Part shown: positions 5,709-16,902 of the stretch, piece after piece
How positions within the stretch are numbered: position 1 is the stretch's first letter
Layout: each line of letters begins with the position of its first letter
Assembly: GCA_011369445.1 (NCBI GenBank)
Contig: DRQF01000122.1
Coordinates: 1 to 47,810, forward strand
Origin: Planctomycetota bacterium
GTDB taxonomy: Bacteria > Planctomycetota > GCA-002687715 > DRQF01
Direction: 5' to 3'
Length of the DNA stretch: 47,810 nt
Made by a program: the position numbers and the translations under genes
The notes under the pieces: generated by a model
The model's input: the letters and a program-made list of their open reading frames with translations, nothing else
Told to the model about the DNA's origin: nothing
Database searches by the model: none

Positions 5709-6854
5709 TCAACGTTTCTGCCCCGGGAGTTGGGGCTGCATGGGCTTTTGAAACGTTTCCGGGTCTCTCTGCAGGAACCCCACCGTCGCCTGGGGAATGG
5801 TGAAGACGAACGATTCCTTCACTCCACCTCCCGGAAACTTGGCTCTGGCGAAGCGATCCGGAGGACGCTTGACTCCATTGACGGGCTCGACCTCGTGCTC
5901 GCCACCGATCTCGAGGACTCGAATCGTCTCACCGCTTTCCTCTCGAAAGCGAGCTTCGACGCGCACCGCCAACTCATCGCGATCGGAAAGCCCGTATTCC
6001 GGTCGAAGCCCCGACCCCACAATCTCGGTGGCGCGAAGGTTCAACATCGTCGTCACGATGCCCTTCACGAGGAGGTCGTCCAGGCGAAGATCCTCTTTCC
6101 CCTCGGGTTCGACCACTTTCCACCAGGGATCTCCCCCGTCCTCTCCTTCTGGCTCGACACGCTCGTAGACGTAGCGAAGTCGCTCCATCTGTGGGGGACT
6201 GACGGGCTGCCCCTTATCGTCGCGCTTGGGGCGGTTCATCTCCACCTCGATGTGGAAACAGGCATTCCGCAACGTCGTCATGCGCTGAGGGTCCTTGAAC
6301 GAAACGTCCATGATCGCCGGGTCGTACCAGTCCTTGACGACCGTGCTGAAAAGCGTGGCCAATTTCTGGGAAGGACAGACCCAGACCTCATCCGTGCCAT
6401 TGACCCGGATGAAAGCACCTCGGCTCCCCTGGATGTCCTGCTTCCCGATGACAAGGTCGAGAAGAGGGGCACGTTTCGCGGTCAGCAAGGTCACCTTCTG
6501 TCCGCGAAGGTCGTCCACCTGCAGATCCTCGTGCAGAAAGCGTTTGTCGGTTCGGAACTCGCTCTTCGGGAGCAGTTTCAGCTCGTCGAGGACCTCCTCG
6601 ACTTTCTTCTGGATCGCCGGATACCCATGGAGGCTTTCCAGAACCCAGACTCCATCGCGCAAGGAGAGTTCGAGAGTCGCGCCGGTGGGATCGACGATCC
6701 GAATGCCGCCGATCTGACCCAGATCGACGGAAGGAAACGTGTGGGCCTTCACGGCTTCCGACTTGGGCGCGGACGTCTTCCACGGGGGGGCGACCAGAAA
6801 CCACACGGCCAATTGCCCGACGAGCAGGATGGATAGGACGACGTTGCGGATCAT
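5709..6854 (-). CDS. DUF4340 domain-containing membrane-anchored protein
   Basis: The 381-residue protein has one N-terminal membrane anchor (NVVLSILLVGQLAVWFLV, residues 4-21) followed by a long soluble domain expected outside the membrane. The repeated beta-type pattern (GGIRIVDPTGATLELS, WVLESLHGYPAIQKKVEEVL) is typical of DUF4340. Members commonly lie downstream of GldG-like genes, as here. Its start overlaps the GldG-like stop by four bases (ATGA), so translation is probably coupled. The function is unknown; the context suggests an accessory subunit of the ABC system encoded upstream. Confidence 0.82.
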   Translation of the reverse strand: MIRNVVLSILLVGQLAVWFLVAPPWKTSAPKSEAVKAHTFPSVDLGQIGGIRIVDPTGATLELSLRDGVWVLESLHGYPAIQKKVEEVLDELKLLPKSEFRTDKRFLHEDLQVDDLRGQKVTLLTAKRAPLLDLVIGKQDIQGSRGAFIRVNGTDEVWVCPSQKLATLFSTVVKDWYDPAIMDVSFKDPQRMTTLRNACFHIEVEMNRPKRDDKGQPVSPPQMERLRYVYERVEPEGEDGGDPWWKVVEPEGKEDLRLDDLLVKGIVTTMLNLRATEIVGSGLRPEYGLSDRDELAVRVEARFREESGETIRVLEIGGEHEVEPVNGVKRPPDRFARAKFPGGGVKESFVFTIPQATVGFLQRDPETFQKPMQPQLPGQKR

Positions 6855-8827
6855 TGGGCAACCCTCCTGTCATGGGTGGGCGCAACAGCGATCTCTCGAC
6901 GGCAGCGAAGATGGCGGAAAGCCGCCACGAGCAGTCCCAAAAGAATCACGGCACCCGGCAGATACACCATGTTGACCAGCTGGATTCGATCCTTCAGAGG
7001 ATCATCCTTCTCCAGGGCCTTGATGCGACGAGATCTGAACGTGCGGTGCTGCAGTTGGAAGAGGTCTTCGGCCTCCTCCCCGTAGGCGAGAACGTCCACG
7101 CAGTTGCTCACGAAGAAAAGCGGTGTCCGCAAGCGTCCGATGAGAGCCTCCCGGTTCATTCCGCCCGCCGAACCCTTGCGGCGCGCCCGGCCCATCTCGA
7201 TCTGCACGAGGGCCCCACGCATGTTGGGCGTGATGAACTGGTCGGAGCAGAAGTCGGCGTCGCCCACCACGAGGAGAGCGCCTCGCACCGACGCGACGTC
7301 GCGGCGGCTTTTTTCGAGTTCATCCTTCGTCGGAAGCGGTTTTCCCGCCGTTCCGGTGGGCTTAGGCATCTCCTTGCCACGGAAGAAACTCTGAAAACGC
7401 CCACGGACGAGCACCGCCACGGGCTGGGACGCCATCGCTGCCTTCCCGGGCCCGGCCTGTTCCGCCGGGTTCACGGGGAAACGCGTCTCCTTGATGGGCT
7501 TCACCCAGCTGCGAGGACCCGTCCGAAGAATCACGTCGGCGATGGCCTCGTGCCGTGTCAGATTGTCCTCGAGGACCGTGACCGGTGACGCCCAGGTCAA
7601 AACGAGGTCGTCATTGGGAGAGAGGATCGAAAACGAATCTCCCAGTTGATGGGAATCCTCGAGCCCCCCCTCGTCGTCTCGCGCCGGGATGACGGGCCAG
7701 GAGAAATAGGGGGCGTAGTCCTCGTTGGGCTTCACCTGGACCTGCCCGAACATGTTCCGAACAAAGTCTTTTCCGGTGTAGTAGATCATGTCGTAGCAGG
7801 AGAAATCCTGAACGAATGCGTGTTCGACGCGCACGCCGTAGTAGGCGAGCATGTCATCGAGCCCGTGATCGATTCCCTCGACCTTATAGTCGGGAAGATC
7901 GTAGTCCTGAACTCGAGCCCTCCCGTACTGAGTGAACTTGGGTTTGGGAGTGAAACTGACGTCTCCGGAGTCCACCATGCAGAGCAGGTTGCCTCCCCCC
8001 ATCAAGAACTGATCGATGACGTACTTGCCGACCTCCGTCAGGGACTTCGGTCGCCACAGCACAACGATGTCCATGCCGGATGGAATGGGCTCTCCGCGGT
8101 TGACCTGGGCGAGATCGAGGGTCTTGACGTCATGGGTTCGCGCGATCACGGCCTCGAGGTTGGAAAGCCCCTGATACTTCACTCGCTTCGAGCGCGGGTT
8201 CGAGGGATTCGAGGGCACCATCTGGACCTCCGAGAGGAGCCCCACGGTCTTTCGAGGACTGGAGACGTTCCGGATGGCCCGACTCAGCACGAATTCCAGG
8301 TCCGATCCGAAGCGTGCCGGGTCCTTCAATGTCTCGCCCGGCATGTCCGAGAAGAAGTTGTAGACGACCTTGCGATCGCCGTAGCGGAACACCAGCGCGA
8401 ACCACGAGATTTTCGTCTTCATCGTGGTGGAGCCCTCCAGCTCCTGGATGCGCCCGGGACCGATTCCCATGTCCTCGCATTCCTGCTTAGCCTCGGGGTC
8501 GGTATCGGGGTCCGCGAAGGTGTAGACGACAGCCCCTTCGCTCTCCTCGTTGAGACGCCCGTACTCATCCAACTTCTCGATGAGAATCCGCGGGCAGTGA
8601 GAGAGCTGCTTCGGGAAGTTCCCGGAGACATAACACTTGATGTTCACAGTGTCGCGCAACCGCTTGACAATGTTCTCTGTCCCGCTGGCGATCTCGAACC
8701 GCTTATCCTCCGTGAGATCCCACCGGAGCTTCACCTGTGTCATCCACAGGTTGGCGACGATGAGGTTCGCCACGACGAGAAAACTCGTGAGGATGACGGT
8801 GGCGACTCCATTCCTCTTTGCGCTCAT
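6851..8827 (-). CDS. GldG-like ABC transporter auxiliary protein
   Basis: The 658-residue protein has an N-terminal membrane helix (VATVILTSFLVVANLIVANLW), a long periplasmic region and a C-terminal helix near 625-645 (GAVILLGLLVAAFRHLRC). The segment starting LRWDLTEDKRFEIASGT is the hallmark opening of GldG-type ABC auxiliary domains, followed by a region on chain extension and a stretch resembling a GATase-like fold (GMDIVVLWRPKSLTEVGKYVID). In gliding Bacteroidetes GldAFG form a transporter needed for motility; in other phyla the same set is widespread and its substrate is unknown. The gene follows an ATPase and a permease gene, so the complex is likely intact here. Confidence 0.82.
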   Translation of the reverse strand: MSAKRNGVATVILTSFLVVANLIVANLWMTQVKLRWDLTEDKRFEIASGTENIVKRLRDTVNIKCYVSGNFPKQLSHCPRILIEKLDEYGRLNEESEGAVVYTFADPDTDPEAKQECEDMGIGPGRIQELEGSTTMKTKISWFALVFRYGDRKVVYNFFSDMPGETLKDPARFGSDLEFVLSRAIRNVSSPRKTVGLLSEVQMVPSNPSNPRSKRVKYQGLSNLEAVIARTHDVKTLDLAQVNRGEPIPSGMDIVVLWRPKSLTEVGKYVIDQFLMGGGNLLCMVDSGDVSFTPKPKFTQYGRARVQDYDLPDYKVEGIDHGLDDMLAYYGVRVEHAFVQDFSCYDMIYYTGKDFVRNMFGQVQVKPNEDYAPYFSWPVIPARDDEGGLEDSHQLGDSFSILSPNDDLVLTWASPVTVLEDNLTRHEAIADVILRTGPRSWVKPIKETRFPVNPAEQAGPGKAAMASQPVAVLVRGRFQSFFRGKEMPKPTGTAGKPLPTKDELEKSRRDVASVRGALLVVGDADFCSDQFITPNMRGALVQIEMGRARRKGSAGGMNREALIGRLRTPLFFVSNCVDVLAYGEEAEDLFQLQHRTFRSRRIKALEKDDPLKDRIQLVNMVYLPGAVILLGLLVAAFRHLRCRREIAVAPTHDRRVAQ

Positions 8828-8837
8828 TCGATCCCCC

Positions 8838-9596
8838 TCACTTCAGCCGCCGATACTCGAGCACGGAGACATTCAGAAACGCGAACATCGCCGTGAACGA
8901 AAGGAAGAAGAACAGGTCTCGAAAGTCGAGAACCCCCTTCTCGATGCTGGAAAACCGCACGGAGAATCCGATGAATTTCAGTCGTTCCGACAGCCAATCG
9001 GGAGTCACGAGATCGACCGCCGCCGTGCCCGCGAACGTCAGGAAGAAACAGATGACGAGGGCTACGAGGAGTCCCGTGACCTGTTCCTTGGTGAAAGCGG
9101 TCGCGAACATGGCCACGGCGCAATAAGCTCCTCCGAGCAAGAGCGCGCCCACGTAACCGCCGATGATCGGCCCGGAATCGAGCCCATCCACGGCAACCCA
9201 GCCCACGGTCCAGGGCACGACGAGGGAAAGCCCCAGAGCCGTCGCAACGATCGTGACCATTGCCAGGAACTTTCCGATCACGACGTCGGAAGCGCGCACG
9301 GGCAACGTCATGAGGACCTCCACGGTTCCTGTCTTGTACTCCTCGGGCCAGAGCCGAATACACAGGATCGGAACAAAAAGTCCCAGCGCCACCGGGAAAG
9401 TCGCAAAGTAGTCCGTCAGCGTGGCCTCGCCCTGCAAGAAGAAGTTCCCGCGAAACCCGCTCTTCAGGTCCACCGAGGGCAACACGAAGAACAGGAATGA
9501 CGTGAGGAGCAAGAAGAGAAACAGGAAGGCGTAACCCGTCGCTGACGTGAAGTAGCTCACGAGTTCCTTCTTCCAGATGCAAAGGATTCGACTCAT
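8838..9596 (-). CDS. ABC-2 type permease (GldF-like)
   Basis: The 252-residue product has six membrane segments with the usual ABC-2 order: a cytoplasmic start (ILCIWKKELVSYF), a first helix (GYAFLFLFLLLTSFLFFVL) and an extracytoplasmic loop with the glycine-rich SGFRGNFFLQGEA. The sequence LWPEEYKTGTVEVLMTLPV is a strong ABC-2 signature and corresponds to the coupling region. It matches GldF-type permeases in size. The start codon overlaps the stop of the ATPase gene by four bases (ATGA), and the GldG-like gene starts ten bases beyond its stop. The likely role is the membrane channel of the transporter encoded here. Confidence 0.87.
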   Translation of the reverse strand: MSRILCIWKKELVSYFTSATGYAFLFLFLLLTSFLFFVLPSVDLKSGFRGNFFLQGEATLTDYFATFPVALGLFVPILCIRLWPEEYKTGTVEVLMTLPVRASDVVIGKFLAMVTIVATALGLSLVVPWTVGWVAVDGLDSGPIIGGYVGALLLGGAYCAVAMFATAFTKEQVTGLLVALVICFFLTFAGTAAVDLVTPDWLSERLKFIGFSVRFSSIEKGVLDFRDLFFFLSFTAMFAFLNVSVLEYRRLK

Positions 9597-10609
9597 TGGG
9601 CGTCATCCTCCAAAGTTCCGTCCGCCGCGACCGCCGAGACCGCGTCTGGCGCCTCCGACGGGGCGTCTCCCAACCGGACCTTTCCCCCCGTGAGGCGGCG
9701 AAAGACATCCTCCAGGGTCGTCTTCTTCCTCGAGGCTTCGAGAAGTCGGCTCCCGCGCTCGCCGGCCAGACGGGCCAGGGCGCCAACGAGGTCCGCGCCG
9801 TCCCGGCCCTCCACGCGCACTTCGAGCCGCTCTCCGGCACGCACCGTTTCCGAGGCCTGAGCCACCTCTTCGAGCGCGCGAATCTCTTCGATGGTGGGAA
9901 GACCCGCGCCTGTGAAGACCACGTCGTAGGCGGCGTCCTCCGCATATCGCGCCTCGAGTTCCGACGGGGATCCGTTGGCCACGATGCGCCCCTCGTCTAC
10001 GACGATGACGCGGGCGCAGGTCGCCTCCACTTCGGAGAGGATGTGACTCGAGAGGAGAACGGTGTTCTTGGCACCGATCTCCTTCAGTAGCTCGCGGATC
10101 TCGATGATCTGGTTGGGATCCAATCCGATCGTCGGCTCGTCCAGAATGACGAGCTTCGGATCGTGGACGATGGCCTGTCCCAGCCCCACGCGCTGGCGAT
10201 ACCCTTTCGACAGTGTCTTGATGAGCTTGTTCCGTTTCGGTGCCAGGCTGCAGACGGAGATGACGTACTCCAGACGCTCCTTCCGCCGACGACCGTCGAG
10301 GCCCCGCATGCCGGCCATGAAATTCAGGTACTCCTCCACGGTCATGTCCCCGTACAAAGGTGCGTGCTCGGGGAGGTATCCGATCTCCTCTCGAACCGCG
10401 AGGGAATCCGAGACGACGTCGTGTCCGGCCACGGTCACCTCCCCTCCGCTCATCGCCATGTAGCCGGTGATGATCTTCATGGTCGTCGTCTTGCCCGCAC
10501 CATTCGGACCGAGGAACCCCACGATCTCCTCGCGAGCGACGTCGAAACTGATCCCCCTGACCGCGTGGAACGGGCCGTAGAACTTGTGCAGATCACGGAC
10601 GCTCAACAT
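9593..10609 (-). CDS. ABC transporter ATP-binding protein (GldA-like)
   Basis: The 338-residue protein carries a complete nucleotide-binding domain: Walker A GPNGAGKTT at about 34-42, a Q-loop region (IGYLPEHAPLYGDMTV), the signature sequence as LSKGYRQRVGLGQA, Walker B LVILDEPTIGLDP and the switch histidine in LLSSHILSEVE. The signature LSKGYRQ rather than LSGGQ is common in the ABC-2/GldA branch. After about residue 220 there is an extra C-terminal domain with VEGRDGADLVGAL, as in other exporters of this kind. A good GGAGGAG precedes the ATG. It powers the permease and GldG-like partners in the same operon. Confidence 0.92.
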   Translation of the reverse strand: MLSVRDLHKFYGPFHAVRGISFDVAREEIVGFLGPNGAGKTTTMKIITGYMAMSGGEVTVAGHDVVSDSLAVREEIGYLPEHAPLYGDMTVEEYLNFMAGMRGLDGRRRKERLEYVISVCSLAPKRNKLIKTLSKGYRQRVGLGQAIVHDPKLVILDEPTIGLDPNQIIEIRELLKEIGAKNTVLLSSHILSEVEATCARVIVVDEGRIVANGSPSELEARYAEDAAYDVVFTGAGLPTIEEIRALEEVAQASETVRAGERLEVRVEGRDGADLVGALARLAGERGSRLLEASRKKTTLEDVFRRLTGGKVRLGDAPSEAPDAVSAVAADGTLEDDAQ

Positions 10610-10624
10610 GCGTTTTCTCCTCCA

Positions 10625-10912
10625 TCAACTCGTGGGTGCGATCCTGAAGGGGCCGATCGGCCCCGCCGCGTCCTCGGCACACTCCACGTCCACCGCATCG
10701 ACACGGGCGTGGGGAGGGCCCTCCCTGATCCTTTCGAGCAAGCTATCCACGGCCTCGGGCTCACCGACGAGCAAACATTCCACGGTTCCATCTGCGCGGT
10801 TTCGTACCCATCCTTCGACACCGAGGGCCTGTGCATTCTCTCGGACGAACCAACGGAATCCTACGCCCTGAACGCGTCCGGTTGCAACCACTCGAAGACG
10901 CCGACTTCCCAT
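10625..10912 (-). CDS. acyP: Acylphosphatase
   Basis: The 95-residue protein matches the acylphosphatase fold. GRVQGVGFRWFVRENA carries the phosphate-binding loop with catalytic Arg20, and GWVRNRADGTVE carries the catalytic Asn38. The length is that of the family. The enzyme hydrolyses the carboxyl-phosphate bond of acyl phosphates in the cytoplasm. It lies one base after the PQQ-like gene and 15 bases before the ATPase gene, so it is probably co-transcribed with the ABC system, although no functional link is known. Confidence 0.93.
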   Translation of the reverse strand: MGSRRLRVVATGRVQGVGFRWFVRENAQALGVEGWVRNRADGTVECLLVGEPEAVDSLLERIREGPPHARVDAVDVECAEDAAGPIGPFRIAPTS

Positions 10913-10913
10913 C

Positions 10914-12149
10914 TCAGCGGAAGGCGCTCACCCGCCCCTTGCCGTCGCAGATGTAGACCAGACCGTCGATGAGCACGGGGCTACTCCAGGACGCCGCCCC
11001 GTAGTTGGCCTCCCACGCCAGCTCGCCGTTCTCCAATCTGATCGCAAAGATTCGCCCGTCTCCATTGGATGCGTAGACCAATTCCTTGCCCACGCAAGGT
11101 GACGCCACGCCGGGCTTCTCCATGTTGTACCGCCATTTCTCCTCGCCGGTGATCGCATCGAAGCAAAACAGCAGGCGGTTGATGATCACCATCACCTGGC
11201 GCTTCCAAACGCCGATCCCCTGCTGGTGCTGGGCGGTACACGGCTGGTGCCATCGGACATTCCCGCGGAGGAGGTCGACGGACATGAACTTTCGACCCGT
11301 GGCGCAAAAATAGGCGCTGCCGAAGGCGATGGCGGGCGATCCGGTGGAGCGATAGCCGATCTCGAAGGCGGCGATCAGCTTGCCCGTTTCCAGGTCGACT
11401 TTGCGGAGAAACTTGTCGTGGGCCGGGAAGATGACTTGGCCGCCTCGCGTGACGGCGGCCGAGGACCCCACAAAGTCGCCGGTCTCGAACTTCCAGATGG
11501 TCTTGCCGTTGGAGGGATCGAGGCAGTAGAGGTTGCGATCATTGCAGCCGATGAGCAGCTTGCCCTTGGCCAGACGTGGGGACGAGTAGACATCGTTGGG
11601 AAACTCCCTCTCCCACGCCACCGATCCGTCTGCGACGTTGAAGGCCGTGAGGATTCCCTGCTGCGTGGCTATGTACAGGTGCTCGTCGTCGACACAGGGG
11701 TTGCTGAACGAATAGACCTGCTCGGCCTTCACCGCGGTTCCATCGAGAGCAGGCGCCAAATCCGAAGGGGGCTTCGCCTTCTTCTCCTTGGGTTTCGGAT
11801 TCTTGGAAACGCGCTCCTCGGTGCTCCACACGAGCTTCCCCGTACGGTGATCCACGGCATAGGCCGAACCGCCCCAGTCGCCGAAGTACATCACTCCCTT
11901 GCGAAAACAGGGGGTGACGGTCACCCGATTCCCCGCCAGGAAGGACCAAACGCGCTCACCCTTGACCGCGTCCGTCGGGCTGGGAGAGCGCCCCGTGTTC
12001 TTGAGATCACCGCGCCACATGGGCCAGTCGTCGGCCGCCCGCTCGGACTGGGCGGACACGCCGTTCACCTGGACCACGAAGATCAAGACAAAAAGAGGGA
12101 GCCATCGGAGATCATTGCGGATCGGAATGGATCGAGCACACCTGACCAT
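10914..12149 (-). CDS. Exported PQQ-like (BamB-type) beta-propeller protein
   Basis: The 411-residue product has a signal peptide (LRWLPLFVLIFVVQVNGVSAQ, cleavage expected near SAQ-S at about 34). The mature part opens with DDWPMWRGDLKNTGRS, a common start for PQQ-like propeller proteins. Repeats of about 40-50 residues then follow, each with an A-V-D-x-x-T-G-K-x-x-W core (AYAVDHRTGKLVWST, LDPSNGKTIWKFETGDF, FAIRLENGELAWEANYG), enough for a propeller of about seven or eight blades. No quinoprotein catalytic site is obvious, so a structural or binding role is likely. A signal-peptide protein as first gene of an ABC operon suggests a periplasmic partner. AAGGAA lies upstream of the ATG. Confidence 0.85.
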   Translation of the reverse strand: MVRCARSIPIRNDLRWLPLFVLIFVVQVNGVSAQSERAADDWPMWRGDLKNTGRSPSPTDAVKGERVWSFLAGNRVTVTPCFRKGVMYFGDWGGSAYAVDHRTGKLVWSTEERVSKNPKPKEKKAKPPSDLAPALDGTAVKAEQVYSFSNPCVDDEHLYIATQQGILTAFNVADGSVAWEREFPNDVYSSPRLAKGKLLIGCNDRNLYCLDPSNGKTIWKFETGDFVGSSAAVTRGGQVIFPAHDKFLRKVDLETGKLIAAFEIGYRSTGSPAIAFGSAYFCATGRKFMSVDLLRGNVRWHQPCTAQHQQGIGVWKRQVMVIINRLLFCFDAITGEEKWRYNMEKPGVASPCVGKELVYASNGDGRIFAIRLENGELAWEANYGAASWSSPVLIDGLVYICDGKGRVSAFR

Positions 12150-12396: not shown

Positions 12397-12726
12397 CTAT
12401 CCGTCGTAGACGGGGAGCAGGAACGCGAGAACGAAGTAGGCAATGAGGCCGGGAACGATTCCCGTGAAGATGACCAACAGGACCACGAGGAAGCGAAAGG
12501 TATCCCGCTCCATGTTGGCGGCGTCCGCAAGACCGCCCAGAACACCCGCGATCTCCTTACCTTCATTGATCTTGTAGAAACGAGGCTTGTCGACCTCGGC
12601 TTGCTTGACGGCCTTCTCCACGCACGAGCGGCAGGCAGGATAGCCGGCCAGATCGATGAGTTGGTCCACGTCGAAGGCGTCGTCGCAGAGGGAGCAGTGG
12701 GCTGCTCGAGCTGAATTCACCGGCAT
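12397..12726 (-). CDS. PspC domain protein with an N-terminal zinc knuckle
   Basis: I choose the ATG at 12726 because AAGGA lies seven bases before it; two in-frame ATG codons further upstream have no ribosome-binding site. The 109-residue product begins with a four-cysteine knuckle (C11-x2-C14 and C32-x2-C35), then a PspC domain with INEGKEIAGVLGGLAD, then one or two membrane segments at about 78-104 (FLVVLLVIFTGIVPGLIAYFVLAFLL). PspC proteins are membrane sensors in envelope-stress responses. The zinc head is an unusual addition. No pspA or pspB gene is near, so a standard Psp role is uncertain. Confidence 0.82.
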   Translation of the reverse strand: MPVNSARAAHCSLCDDAFDVDQLIDLAGYPACRSCVEKAVKQAEVDKPRFYKINEGKEIAGVLGGLADAANMERDTFRFLVVLLVIFTGIVPGLIAYFVLAFLLPVYDG

Positions 12727-12825
12727 GGCCAAGTCCTTCTCGGAGAGCAACTGAGTCGACATGGTAACCCATTCGGCCAACCCGGGGAGAGATTTTCGAA
12801 TCCTCCTCGGCTGACGTCGCGGCGC

Positions 12826-14625
12826 TCAGAGCCGTGGCCGCACGAGGACGACTTCGATCTCGCCCGCGCGGATCCCGGAGGGACAGGCGCCCAGAACATT
12901 CCACTTCCCGAGGCGCACAGTGGCGTGACCGCCCAGCTGGCGCAGGGTCGTCTGTGGCAATTCCGTCCCCACTTCCACCAACCCCGCCCCCTCGAAGGTC
13001 GGCGGCAGCCCGGCCGCCCCACCGGACAGTCGGCAGTCGTACTGGAGCATGACGCTCTCGCCTCGAAGCCGCAAAGGTGCCAAACGAATCGCCACGCCGC
13101 GAAAACGCACGCCCGGAATCGGCGCGAGGATGTCCGCACCCTGGGCGATCTCGACGGCGTTGTCGCGAATATAAGAGGATTCCCTGCCGGCGATGAAGTC
13201 GATCACCCCGCCGGGCTCCATGACCGACACGCCGTGAAAGCGCCGAAAAGCGTCCGGGGAGCGGAGGATGGTTCGGGCCGCTCGGTCACCCTCCCGGGCC
13301 GCAGCGGCGTAGACGTCCTGGGGAAGGGAGACGATGAGGACCTCCCAGCCAAGCGCCTTGGCCTTGACGTCCGTCAGCCCCCGAAGGAACCGTCGCACGG
13401 CCCGGTTTTGCTCCGGGCTCGTCAACAGCCAGAGCCAGTCGGACGTGGCTTCGAGGTCATAGAGGTTGGCCCCCCACCACTCGGGCCGGACCGATCTGCG
13501 AATGAAGTCGCCCAACTCCTCTTCGCTTATGAATCGATGACCGCTCTCATAGGGCGCCACCGCAGTGGGAATATCGCCATCCATCGCACGTTTGTCTCCC
13601 CAGGCCGCTCCCAGACTCACGGGAGGCATGACGAGGTAGGGCAGACAAAGATCACTCAACGGAAAAAGATCGACCGAGGGAATCGGCATCGGACCTTGGG
13701 GGGGAGAAGTCGCCCGTCGCGCACGGATCGCAAGGACCCGCGAGGAGTCCTCGCCGCCCAGGACGCATCCGACGACCAGAGCCTCACCGTCATCGAGGCG
13801 CCCGGATCCAGAAAAACGGGAGGTGCGCATCGACGGCAATTGCATCTTGCCCGTGCTGCGTGAGACGAAGTCCCTCGTAGCGAAGTCCTCGTCGATGCCT
13901 CCTTGAACTCTCAAGACGATCTTACCGTCGGCGCTGATGAGGGGGCGCACCGTGAGGTCGAGACCTTCGAACACGGTGAGAGTCGTGGGATCCACCGCCT
14001 CCGCCTCCTGGGCCACTTCCACGTCCACGATGCCGACGAAGGGTTTGCGAACCCCGGATTGGAGCCTCACCCTCAGCCCGGGAATCGTCGAAGCCCTGAG
14101 AACCCCATCCAGCACAGCGCCCTGGTCCTTTCCGGTCAAAAGGGCGTCCACTCGAGCCGCGGGCAACACAGGGCCGTTCGCGAGGAGGCCAACGAGTTCC
14201 GCCGGGCCCAACCGGAGGATCAGCGCCTCGAGGGCGATGGGCTCGCGTACCCGTAGAGTCATGCTCTCCAGCAGACTGCCGATCTTCTTCAGAACATCCG
14301 GCTTCTGGGAGACGACCAGGTGCCTTCCGTCCTCCAGCAGGCGCAGAGTGACCCCTTCCGAGTTCCAACTTTCCTCCGGGATTCCGTCGCGAATGATGGC
14401 GAGTAAGGCCTCAGGGCGTACGAGCATGCGAGGGTCGAGGCTCTCCCCGGACCGATCATTCGAGAAACGTTGGTAGTAGGCCGTCCAGATCGGGAGCCCC
14501 CAGAAACCGATCGGCGCATCCGAAACCGGCGAAATGAGAGGCGAAACGTCGAAGATACGGGTCTGCAGACCTCCTTGTCCGAAGGAGGTCGACGCCAGCA
14601 AGAAAAGCAGGAGGAATCGGTTCAT
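12826..14625 (-). CDS. Secreted protein with two similar secretin-like halves, function unknown
   Basis: The ATG at 14625 has GAGAAG nine bases upstream; a TTG at 14634 overlapping the previous stop is an alternative. The 599-residue product has a signal peptide (FLLLFLLASTSFGQ). Two halves (about 20-300 and 315-599) align with each other: both open with a short beta hairpin, then a FIRR/AIIRD helix region, a -LxLLEDGRHLVVSQKPD / -DWLWLLTSPEQNRAV strand-helix and an ALEALILRL / GWEVLIVSL strand. The pattern resembles the N-domains and fold of secretin-type proteins but lacks a clear secretin barrel, so it may be a periplasmic structural protein. It is the last gene of the sigma/anti-sigma operon. 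Confidence 0.6.
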   Translation of the reverse strand: MNRFLLLFLLASTSFGQGGLQTRIFDVSPLISPVSDAPIGFWGLPIWTAYYQRFSNDRSGESLDPRMLVRPEALLAIIRDGIPEESWNSEGVTLRLLEDGRHLVVSQKPDVLKKIGSLLESMTLRVREPIALEALILRLGPAELVGLLANGPVLPAARVDALLTGKDQGAVLDGVLRASTIPGLRVRLQSGVRKPFVGIVDVEVAQEAEAVDPTTLTVFEGLDLTVRPLISADGKIVLRVQGGIDEDFATRDFVSRSTGKMQLPSMRTSRFSGSGRLDDGEALVVGCVLGGEDSSRVLAIRARRATSPPQGPMPIPSVDLFPLSDLCLPYLVMPPVSLGAAWGDKRAMDGDIPTAVAPYESGHRFISEEELGDFIRRSVRPEWWGANLYDLEATSDWLWLLTSPEQNRAVRRFLRGLTDVKAKALGWEVLIVSLPQDVYAAAAREGDRAARTILRSPDAFRRFHGVSVMEPGGVIDFIAGRESSYIRDNAVEIAQGADILAPIPGVRFRGVAIRLAPLRLRGESVMLQYDCRLSGGAAGLPPTFEGAGLVEVGTELPQTTLRQLGGHATVRLGKWNVLGACPSGIRAGEIEVVLVRPRL

Positions 14626-14630
14626 GGAAT

Positions 14631-16235
14631 TCAACTTCTCGTCAAAGAGTCGGGTTGGGCGGGCATGCCGCTAGGCCGTCGCAGGAAGACAAACCCCTGC
14701 CAAGCGCGCCGCAATCGCTTGGGAGCCAGACGAATCAGACGCGCCCGAGCCCGGTGCCGTACGCGTCCGTCGACATCATCGGCGAGTCGTCCCAAAACGT
14801 CCACGGCCTCGATTCCACCCACGTCGGCGATCACATCCACAAGCAGCCACCGGATGTCGTCGCGGTCGAGCAGCCCGTAGAGCTCGGGCAACAGCTTTTT
14901 GGAAGCGGAATACCGCAGGGCGCACACATACTGCATCTGGTAGGGGTCGTTGCCCGCCTTGATCCGCTTCAGGTAAAGGGCCGCTCCCTCGTCACCGAAT
15001 CGGCGAATCGCCCGACCGAGCATTTTCAACTGACGGCCGGGGCGCGCCCAATCGCTCAGCCGAATCCGGCGTGGCAAAAGCAGAGCGGCCTTCGCGCCCC
15101 CGATGCGGCCGAGCGCCTCCGTGGTCGCCACAAGGAATCTTCCCTCGAGAAAGAACCTCTCGAGCTGCGGCAAGCTCTCCTTGTCGCGGAGAATCCCCAA
15201 CAATTCGATGGCCCGCTCTCTGTCCTTCTGCCGGGTCGCGCCTCCGAAGGCGAGGCTGCGGAGATGGGGAACGACGTCCGAGCGGGAGCTGATCGCGACC
15301 ACAAGACTCTCTTCCTGGCGCCCACCCACCCAGAGGTCGACAAGAACCTTCGCCCCCGCCGTCGAGCGCGCAAGATGCACGACCGCTCGCCGAAAGGCCT
15401 CCCCTTCGAGACGGCTCAATTGCTCCTCGAGCCGAATAAGGTCGCGTCGCTTTCCGAGCTTCATCCAGTGATCGATGGCCGAATCGACGGGATAGCCCGC
15501 GGCGATAGCCGGTCCGAGCAGCCCACGAACGGCGTCCACGTCGAGATCGGCGAGGACGTCCAGAGCGCGAAACCGTTCTTCGGCGGAGCGCGTGGTGTCC
15601 TGAACGAGATCGCGCAAGGCTCCGAGATAGTGCCTTTGATCCCGATTCCGTATCGCGGCCAGCACCGCCGGGAGGGCGGGCGTTCCCCGGCCTCCTCTGA
15701 TCCAACCGATCAGAGTTCTCGAGAGTGAACTGCCACAGGAGCGCAGACGGCGTTCGAAACCGATAAGACGCGGACGGATCTCGTCGTCATCAGGATGACC
15801 CTCCAGCCACTGGGCCAGTTCGCGCTCGACCGACGCCAATTCGGCGCTCGAATCCATGGCCGCGCCCACCGTGATCGAAGACCCCGGCGGATTCGGCGAC
15901 GTCTCGGCACGTCGGAGCCAGAGGGCTCCTCCCAGAGTCAGCAGAAAGCCGGCGACCAAAGCCGCAGCGGGGCGCACGAGCGACCTGGCCCTGCGCATCT
16001 CCTCACCCGTGGACATCCGGGCCAGGAGTCGAGCGTGGAACCTCTCTTCGTAGTTGCTTTCAAGAGGCGGCCCGATGTCCTTCTCGAGACCGTGGGCGAG
16101 GCGGCGATAGGCATGGACCCGGCTGCGGCATTCGAAGCAGGAATGCACGTGCTCCCGAAGGAGCTTCGCGCTCTGTTCGGAGAGTTCGCCGTCCATCCAG
16201 GCGGAGAGTTCGAGAGGTTCCGGGCAAGCCATCAT
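14631..16235 (-). CDS. Zinc-finger anti-sigma factor with a HEAT-like cytoplasmic or periplasmic tail
   Basis: The ATG at 16235 overlaps the sigma factor stop by four bases, so I reject the longer open frame, whose first 58 codons lie inside the sigma gene. The 534-residue product starts with a ZAS-type domain: C4, H29-x3-C33-x2-C36. A membrane segment lies at about 90-107 (AAALVAGFLLTLGGALWL). From there to the end is a long helical region with HEAT-like spacing (RALDVLADLDVDAVRG, AIELLGILRDKESLPQLERFFL). Normal anti-sigma factors are far shorter (about 80-250 residues), so the tail is notable; it may receive the signal outside the membrane. Confidence 0.75.
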   Translation of the reverse strand: MMACPEPLELSAWMDGELSEQSAKLLREHVHSCFECRSRVHAYRRLAHGLEKDIGPPLESNYEERFHARLLARMSTGEEMRRARSLVRPAAALVAGFLLTLGGALWLRRAETSPNPPGSSITVGAAMDSSAELASVERELAQWLEGHPDDDEIRPRLIGFERRLRSCGSSLSRTLIGWIRGGRGTPALPAVLAAIRNRDQRHYLGALRDLVQDTTRSAEERFRALDVLADLDVDAVRGLLGPAIAAGYPVDSAIDHWMKLGKRRDLIRLEEQLSRLEGEAFRRAVVHLARSTAGAKVLVDLWVGGRQEESLVVAISSRSDVVPHLRSLAFGGATRQKDRERAIELLGILRDKESLPQLERFFLEGRFLVATTEALGRIGGAKAALLLPRRIRLSDWARPGRQLKMLGRAIRRFGDEGAALYLKRIKAGNDPYQMQYVCALRYSASKKLLPELYGLLDRDDIRWLLVDVIADVGGIEAVDVLGRLADDVDGRVRHRARARLIRLAPKRLRRAWQGFVFLRRPSGMPAQPDSLTRS

Positions 16236-16828
16236 GATTCCATGAACCGCTCCACCTTGCGGCGGAGCTTCTCCCGAGCATGAAACAAATTGACCTTCAC
16301 CGCCTCGGGCGAGATTCCCAAGGCGTGAGCGATTTCGGCGTAGTCGAAGCCCGCCATGGCATGCATGAGCAAAACGGTGCGCTGTCGCTCGGGGAGTTCC
16401 CGAGTCCATGCCTGAATCCGCTCCTGCAGCTCATCGGCCATGAGCCTCGGCCCGGGCCGGTCCTCGTCGCGAGCCTGGGGCCCGTCGATGGGCAACTCGG
16501 CCATGGAACGGGCGCGACGACGCCCCGCCGGACGCAGCCAGTCGTTGAAATGTCGGGCGGCGATCCGATAGAGCCACCGCCGCGCAGCTTGGGGGTCGCG
16601 GAGGCTGTCCAGGGCCCGGTAGGCCTTCACGAAGACATCTTGGGCCAGCTCTTCGGCGTCATGGTGATTGCCGCACAGCCTCTCCAGAAAACGCCGGATT
16701 TCTCGGGCGTGGAGATTGACGAGCAGATCGAAGCGAACCCGCCGGTCCGTTTCGGGGTCGGCAACCTTTCGCTGCTTCAGTTGTCTTTCGATCCACCGCA
16801 TGGCGGCCCTCGTGACTTCGCTTTGCAC
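16232..16828 (-). CDS. ECF-type RNA polymerase sigma factor
   Basis: The 198-residue protein has sigma region 2 (about 35-98, with AEELAQDVFVKAYRALDSLR and WLYRIAARHFNDWLR) and region 4 (about 138-190, with ELPERQRTVLLMHAMAGFDY and a helix-turn-helix in IAHALGISPEAVKVNLFHAR). No region 3 is present, as expected for ECF factors. The first codon used is GTG at 16828, with no strong ribosome-binding site; the ATG at 16801, with AGGG before it, is a plausible alternative. The cognate anti-sigma factor overlaps its stop codon. Its regulon is unknown; autoregulation is likely but not shown by sequence. Confidence 0.88.
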   Translation of the reverse strand: MQSEVTRAAMRWIERQLKQRKVADPETDRRVRFDLLVNLHAREIRRFLERLCGNHHDAEELAQDVFVKAYRALDSLRDPQAARRWLYRIAARHFNDWLRPAGRRRARSMAELPIDGPQARDEDRPGPRLMADELQERIQAWTRELPERQRTVLLMHAMAGFDYAEIAHALGISPEAVKVNLFHAREKLRRKVERFMES

Positions 16829-16870: not shown

Positions 16871-16902
16871 AAAGAAAAATGCCGAAATCGCGGTCATTTC
16901 GG
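16871..16902 (-). terminator. Rho-independent terminator after the deacetylase gene
   Basis: On the minus strand CCGAAAT and ATTTCGG form a perfect 7-bp stem around a 7-base loop (16882-16902), followed directly by a T-rich run (CATTTTTCTTT). It begins 14 bases after the deacetylase stop codon. This marks the end of the polysaccharide transcription unit and separates it from the sigma operon. Confidence 0.8.

Follow-up and report, generated by a model that had tools for sequence, protein, structure and literature searches.

The window, a 47,810-nucleotide stretch of a Planctomycetota contig, contains a minus-strand operon of three genes, which encode, in order, an ECF sigma factor, an anti-sigma factor and SECR, as the exported third protein is called here. 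The features of the operon and of the adjoining downstream genes are as follows.

16232 to 16801, minus strand: ECF sigma factor, 189 aa from ATG 16801 (198 aa if the start is GTG 16828)
16232 to 16235, minus strand: overlap of the sigma stop and the anti-sigma start (ATGA, 4 bases; the same overlap in most relatives)
14631 to 16235, minus strand: membrane anti-sigma factor with a HEAT tail, 534 aa
16128 to 16151, minus strand: Hx3Cx2C zinc motif of the anti-sigma factor (HVHSCFEC, residues 29-36)
15912 to 15980, minus strand: predicted single membrane-spanning helix (residues 86-108 by hydropathy; AlphaFold2 helix at 78-109)
14682 to 15866, minus strand: predicted alpha-solenoid of the HEAT/ARM type (residues 124-518; AlphaFold2, Foldseek and Pfam HEAT_2)
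12826 to 14625, minus strand: SECR, 599 aa, exported, with two tandem secretin-like modules
14578 to 14625, minus strand: SECR signal peptide, as read from the sequence (MNRFLLLFLLASTSFG)
13714 to 14424, minus strand: SECR module 1, an N3-like domain plus secretin core strands (Pfam Secretin and BfpB profile match)
13987 to 14043, minus strand: secretin element of module 1 (PFVGIVDVEVAQEAEAVDP), matching SYVKDYDVEVAQTAFIADP in the alignment with the full-length secretin of this genome
12832 to 13530, minus strand: SECR module 2, homologous to module 1 (hhalign probability 99.9)
13120 to 13176, minus strand: secretin element of module 2 (SYIRDNAVEIAQGADILAP)
12397 to 12762, minus strand: small PspC-domain protein (Pfam PspC, 1.8e-12), 63 bp downstream of SECR
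10914 to 12149, minus strand: BamB-like beta-propeller protein (Pfam PQQ_2, 2.2e-39), first of the downstream block

All three frames were recovered as the sequence-only reading had given them, in a coupled operon. Four bases are shared by the sigma and anti-sigma frames, as it had described, and the gap between the anti-sigma stop (14631-14633) and the SECR ATG (14625) is 5 bases, within the ten that it had allowed. The first protein contains a sigma2 domain (Pfam Sigma70_r2, 3.1e-15) and a sigma4 domain (Pfam Sigma70_r4_2, 9.2e-16) and matches NCBIfam sigma70-ECF (8.4e-29). Its start was moved from GTG 16828, the codon chosen in that reading, to ATG 16801, 27 bases downstream and the most likely start, because GAGGG lies 5 nt upstream of this ATG and the ATG aligns with the sigma start of a same-family relative. 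A scan for sigma-70 promoters and terminators returned nothing above chance, and a hairpin at 16882-16902 is not evidence. The genome encodes about 30 ECF sigma factors in 4.5 Mb of incomplete assembly.

The anti-sigma factor is encoded directly with the ECF sigma factor, through an ATGA overlap that is kept in relatives, and its N-terminus is a helical anti-sigma domain (AlphaFold2 helices at residues 7-14, 20-32, 34-52 and 62-74) that contains the Hx3Cx2C motif (Pfam zf-HC2, E = 1.2e-5). These are features of class I (ASDI) anti-sigma factors, and the protein is a putative inhibitor of its cognate sigma factor. The tail matches Pfam HEAT_2 (E = 6.4e-6, with a bit score slightly below the Pfam cutoff), and an AlphaFold2 model built with eight sequences predicts a helical repeat solenoid across residues 124-518 (pLDDT mostly 75-93). 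In the PDB, Foldseek matched this model best to alphaRep, HEAT and ARM proteins, without any hit below E = 0.001, and the model is described here as a HEAT/ARM-like solenoid, with no finer fold assignment from the PDB fold search. The solenoid probably sits outside the cytoplasm, because the zinc domain lies on the sigma side and a single helix crosses the membrane. Domain profiles and the model thus agree with the earlier description of a 534-residue zinc anti-sigma factor with a HEAT-like tail after its membrane helix. The protein had also been called giant; the length stands but is not unusual, since 480-635 aa is typical for the group. A FecR-type tail was considered and rejected, the tail being HEAT. 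Class I anti-sigma factors with extra C-terminal domains are well known from a census of this class, and a text search of its main text found no mention of HEAT tails (PMC7406223).

SECR is exported and two-halved, as the sequence-only reading had said; what that reading missed is its secretin identity, which emerges from profile, fold and alignment with the genome's own secretin. Residues 213-295, in module 1, match Pfam Secretin (2.4e-4, under the curated cutoff), and the only protein that the SECR profile matched by sequence in the PDB was the type IV pilus secretin BfpB (3.8e-10). AlphaFold2 modelled SECR with moderate confidence (pLDDT 67); the best 40 PDB matches of this model by Foldseek were all secretins. 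The same genome encodes a full-length secretin (G000:C239; Pfam Secretin, 2e-27; core element SYVKDYDVEVAQTAFIADPLVDIVQDGLVLDVKP), whose DYDVEVAQ-IADP element is present in both SECR halves. In the alignment, both modules lack the approximately 85-residue insert that follows the first core strand of this secretin, and both lack the secretin signature at the C-terminus (.P.LG.IP.L, located past the GGL strand) that it keeps (TPVLGQIPVLSYFF). A loose pattern for the signature matched 0 of 94 SECR-family proteins; control ORFs were also unmatched, some having S for G, and the alignment is the better evidence on this point. Because both halves carry the element and lack the insert and the signature, SECR is, on alignment evidence, a trimmed paralogue of the cell's full-length secretin, present as a tandem pair. 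With PilQ, GspD, BfpB and G000:C239 it has in common the N3-like domain, the core strands and a DYDVEVAQ..IADP..G..LDVRP element, but it differs from them in having two modules per chain, no large insert and no C-terminal signature.

The gene downstream of SECR encodes the small PspC-domain protein, which has an N-terminal zinc-ribbon-like cysteine cluster and, by position, is a possible secretin-stress partner of SECR. In Yersinia, PspB and PspC bind secretin multimers that are mislocalised (PMC5596341), and beside SECR a PspC gene is at most a suggestive neighbour. The gene was not seen at L036 or L038, two trio loci that are likewise followed by the propeller-to-GldG block. In the window, that shared part belongs to a block at 5709-12149, downstream of the PspC gene, which comprises the BamB-like propeller, an acylphosphatase, an ABC transporter pair, a GldG-like gene and a DUF4340 gene. 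Directly upstream of the sigma gene, 16917-43899 is occupied by an exopolysaccharide-type cluster encoding a deacetylase with DUF3473, a sugar transferase, asparagine synthase-like and glycosyltransferase-like proteins and nucleotide-sugar enzymes.

The sigma/anti-sigma/SECR order is widespread in the phylum. A comparative search of 59 and then 392 planctomycete genomes, with inspection of the neighbourhoods of the best matches, found it at 24 loci (22 by script, plus L103 by manual inspection and L119) that represent at least 15 families, and most of these loci share the 4-base sigma/anti-sigma overlap. Separation of the three genes in relatives, which the sequence-only reading had said would count against a functional unit, is not what these loci show. 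A profile search of genome contigs from a 3-row alignment gave 8 loci. Among SECR-family genes of 540-700 aa, 24 of 54 have a sigma gene upstream, a fraction biased upwards by a search profile built partly from trio members, and 9 of the 54 were left unjudged at a contig end. A tree of 55 ECF sigma factors (24 from trios, 25 from this genome and 6 others) placed 23 of the 24 trio sigmas in one group with moderate support (81/87), and the trio label required 2 changes on the tree compared with 18.2 in shuffles. The sigma factor of L040, a divergent trio with split SECR genes, falls outside the 23-member group. This clustering argues that the trio is an old unit inherited together over the long term. 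HEAT_2 was recognized in 20 of 25 anti-sigma proteins, and HEAT repeats were not detected in the SECR-linked anti-sigma factors of L047, L062, L074 and L082. No sigma gene adjoins about half of the SECR-family genes covered here, the own-genome paralogue L044 among them.

Two further arrangements of SECR genes were seen. The paralogue just named (L044:2125-3792, G000:C92) is a second tandem secretin-like gene with no adjacent sigma/anti-sigma pair. At four loci of genus g104 (L052, L053, L055 and L057), the anti-sigma gene is followed by two complete SECR genes, giving four secretin modules per operon. The same genus has an exact 13-base motif (AACATTACACGAA) upstream of the sigma gene, once per genome in four of five genomes (L122, L120, L123 and L121 in G149, G120, G288 and G210, respectively), which is consistent with self-regulation of the sigma operon. 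Inspection of the regions upstream of trio sigma genes across families found no common promoter motif, only this one within g104.

HEAT repeats and secretin elements also occur together away from sigma factors. HEAT and SECR genes are neighbours with no adjacent sigma gene at L048, which encodes a 615-aa anti-sigma factor plus SECR, and at L039, which encodes a HEAT protein with an N-terminal hydrophobic segment plus SECR. Elsewhere, the same genome encodes a HEAT protein of 409 aa (L164:520-1749, G000:C34; HEAT_2, 1.2e-9) that has a putative signal peptide. Close to the C-terminus of this protein lies a secretin element, RAYVKDYDVEIAQGAAIADPVIDIVTEGVVLDV, with 59% identity to the own secretin there. 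Relatives of this protein are present in many of 99 genomes searched. Of 20 loci fetched, 10 have the element at the corresponding position, and for the remaining 10 a simple script returned neither a matching frame nor the motif. Together with relatives at L166, L169, L174, L176-L178, L180-L182 and L185, the L164 protein belongs to a widespread planctomycete HEAT family with a copy of the secretin element (YVKDYDVEIAQGAAIADPVIDIV) near the C-terminus. Pfam searches of long SECR-containing ORFs detected no HEAT-SECR fusion. As judged from these sequences, a HEAT solenoid and a secretin element share one polypeptide elsewhere in the phylum, and such proteins are the best available clue, a hint, that the HEAT tail meets SECR.

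Anti-sigma factors can be bound at their periplasmic tail, and guarded against proteolysis, by the secretin-like STN domains that outer-membrane transducers carry (PMC11637429). By analogy with STN domains acting on FecR-type anti-sigma factors, we propose that the trio may form a three-component transmembrane switch in which the HEAT tail binds SECR, and loss of or change in this contact frees the sigma factor, a scheme to which we give an even chance of being correct. The class I N-terminal domain would keep the ECF sigma factor at the inner membrane, while the HEAT solenoid would project into the periplasm and bind SECR through the secretin strand element (DYDVEVAQ...IADP). SECR could then be pulled off the tail, for instance depending on how the real secretin or other SECR copies are assembled, or could change shape with the state of the envelope. 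Either signal would cause the HEAT tail to change state or to become a protease substrate, and the released sigma factor would transcribe a regulon that included at least its own operon. Counted in favour of the switch are the conserved trio order, the clustering of the sigma factors, the class I features, the frequency of HEAT_2 in the anti-sigma proteins, the secretin origin of SECR, the HEAT-SECR pairs at L048 and L039, the HEAT family with the element and the PspC neighbour. Counted against it are the HEAT-less anti-sigma factors, the moderate confidence of the SECR model, the failure of the anti-sigma model to reach a fold match below E = 0.001, and the SECR genes with no sigma neighbour, from which it follows that SECR has a role independent of the switch. 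HEAT repeats also bind many partners, and a co-transcribed SECR may be an output rather than a sensor.

This last point is the chief rival to the switch. SECR may be an envelope structural protein under control of the sigma factor, with the HEAT tail sensing another periplasmic ligand, an explanation that is possible but that we hold to be the less probable one. The ligand might, equally tentatively, be a peptidoglycan fragment, a misfolded protein or a polysaccharide from the neighbouring exopolysaccharide genes. The many sigma-less members of the SECR family, the paired SECR genes of g104, as for a bulk product, and the once-per-genome g104 motif, which fits a narrow self-regulating operon, all agree with such an output; the persistence of HEAT plus SECR with no adjacent sigma gene and the fusion of HEAT with the secretin element in other proteins do not. 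That SECR is a working, divergent secretin, a pore or ring in a regulated secretion or pilus apparatus operon, is unlikely. The Foldseek and HMM similarity to secretins and the downstream BamB-like and PspC genes would fit, but the modules lack the insert and the C-terminal signature kept by the own secretin, none of the scanned family members matched the signature pattern, and no ATPase, pseudopilin or inner-membrane secretion genes were recognized in the operon. Chance juxtaposition of unrelated genes, or an annotation artefact, has nothing in its favour except that any one window is small, and is rejected as highly improbable: the trio recurs at 24 loci, spread over at least 15 families and mostly sharing the overlap, and its sigma factors cluster.

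The proposed switch resembles known systems in part. Like FecI/FecR/FecA and FoxI/FoxR/FoxA, the trio combines an ECF sigma factor, a single-pass anti-sigma factor and an outer-envelope protein, and the contact of the secretin-like STN domain with the extracytoplasmic anti-sigma tail in the Fec/Fox type (PMC11637429) is similar to the proposed HEAT-SECR contact. However, no TonB-dependent receptor with an STN domain was recognized in or beside the operon, no FecR/STN-like C-terminal domain was found in the anti-sigma factor, whose tail is HEAT instead, and the partner is built from secretin core modules in tandem rather than from an STN signalling domain on a barrel. RseA with RseB and CnrY with CnrX are membrane anti-sigma factors with periplasmic partner proteins. 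In these systems, as in the trio, sigma factor, membrane anti-sigma factor and exported modulator are encoded together, and RseA likewise has a class I anti-sigma domain, but the tail (HEAT) and partner (secretin-derived tandem) of the trio differ in fold. The phage-shock (PspB/PspC) response watches secretins, and a PspC-domain gene adjoins SECR. In enterobacteria, this response uses PspF and sigma54, which have no counterpart in the trio operon. The sequence-only reading knew of no named system with this composition, and our searches of the open-licence literature likewise found no description, although an account may exist elsewhere. On this basis, the trio appears to be ECF/class I anti-sigma signalling with a previously undescribed secretin-derived partner.

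For a large and unannotated family of exported proteins in Planctomycetota, a phylum whose regulation is mostly unknown, these results offer a function that can be tested. Secretin-derived domains may have been recruited to anti-sigma factors by a second route beside STN domains. The proposed switch suggests that planctomycete cells use a pore look-alike as a reporter of envelope state, and if it is the secretin that is monitored, this would be a non-Psp way of sensing secretin state.
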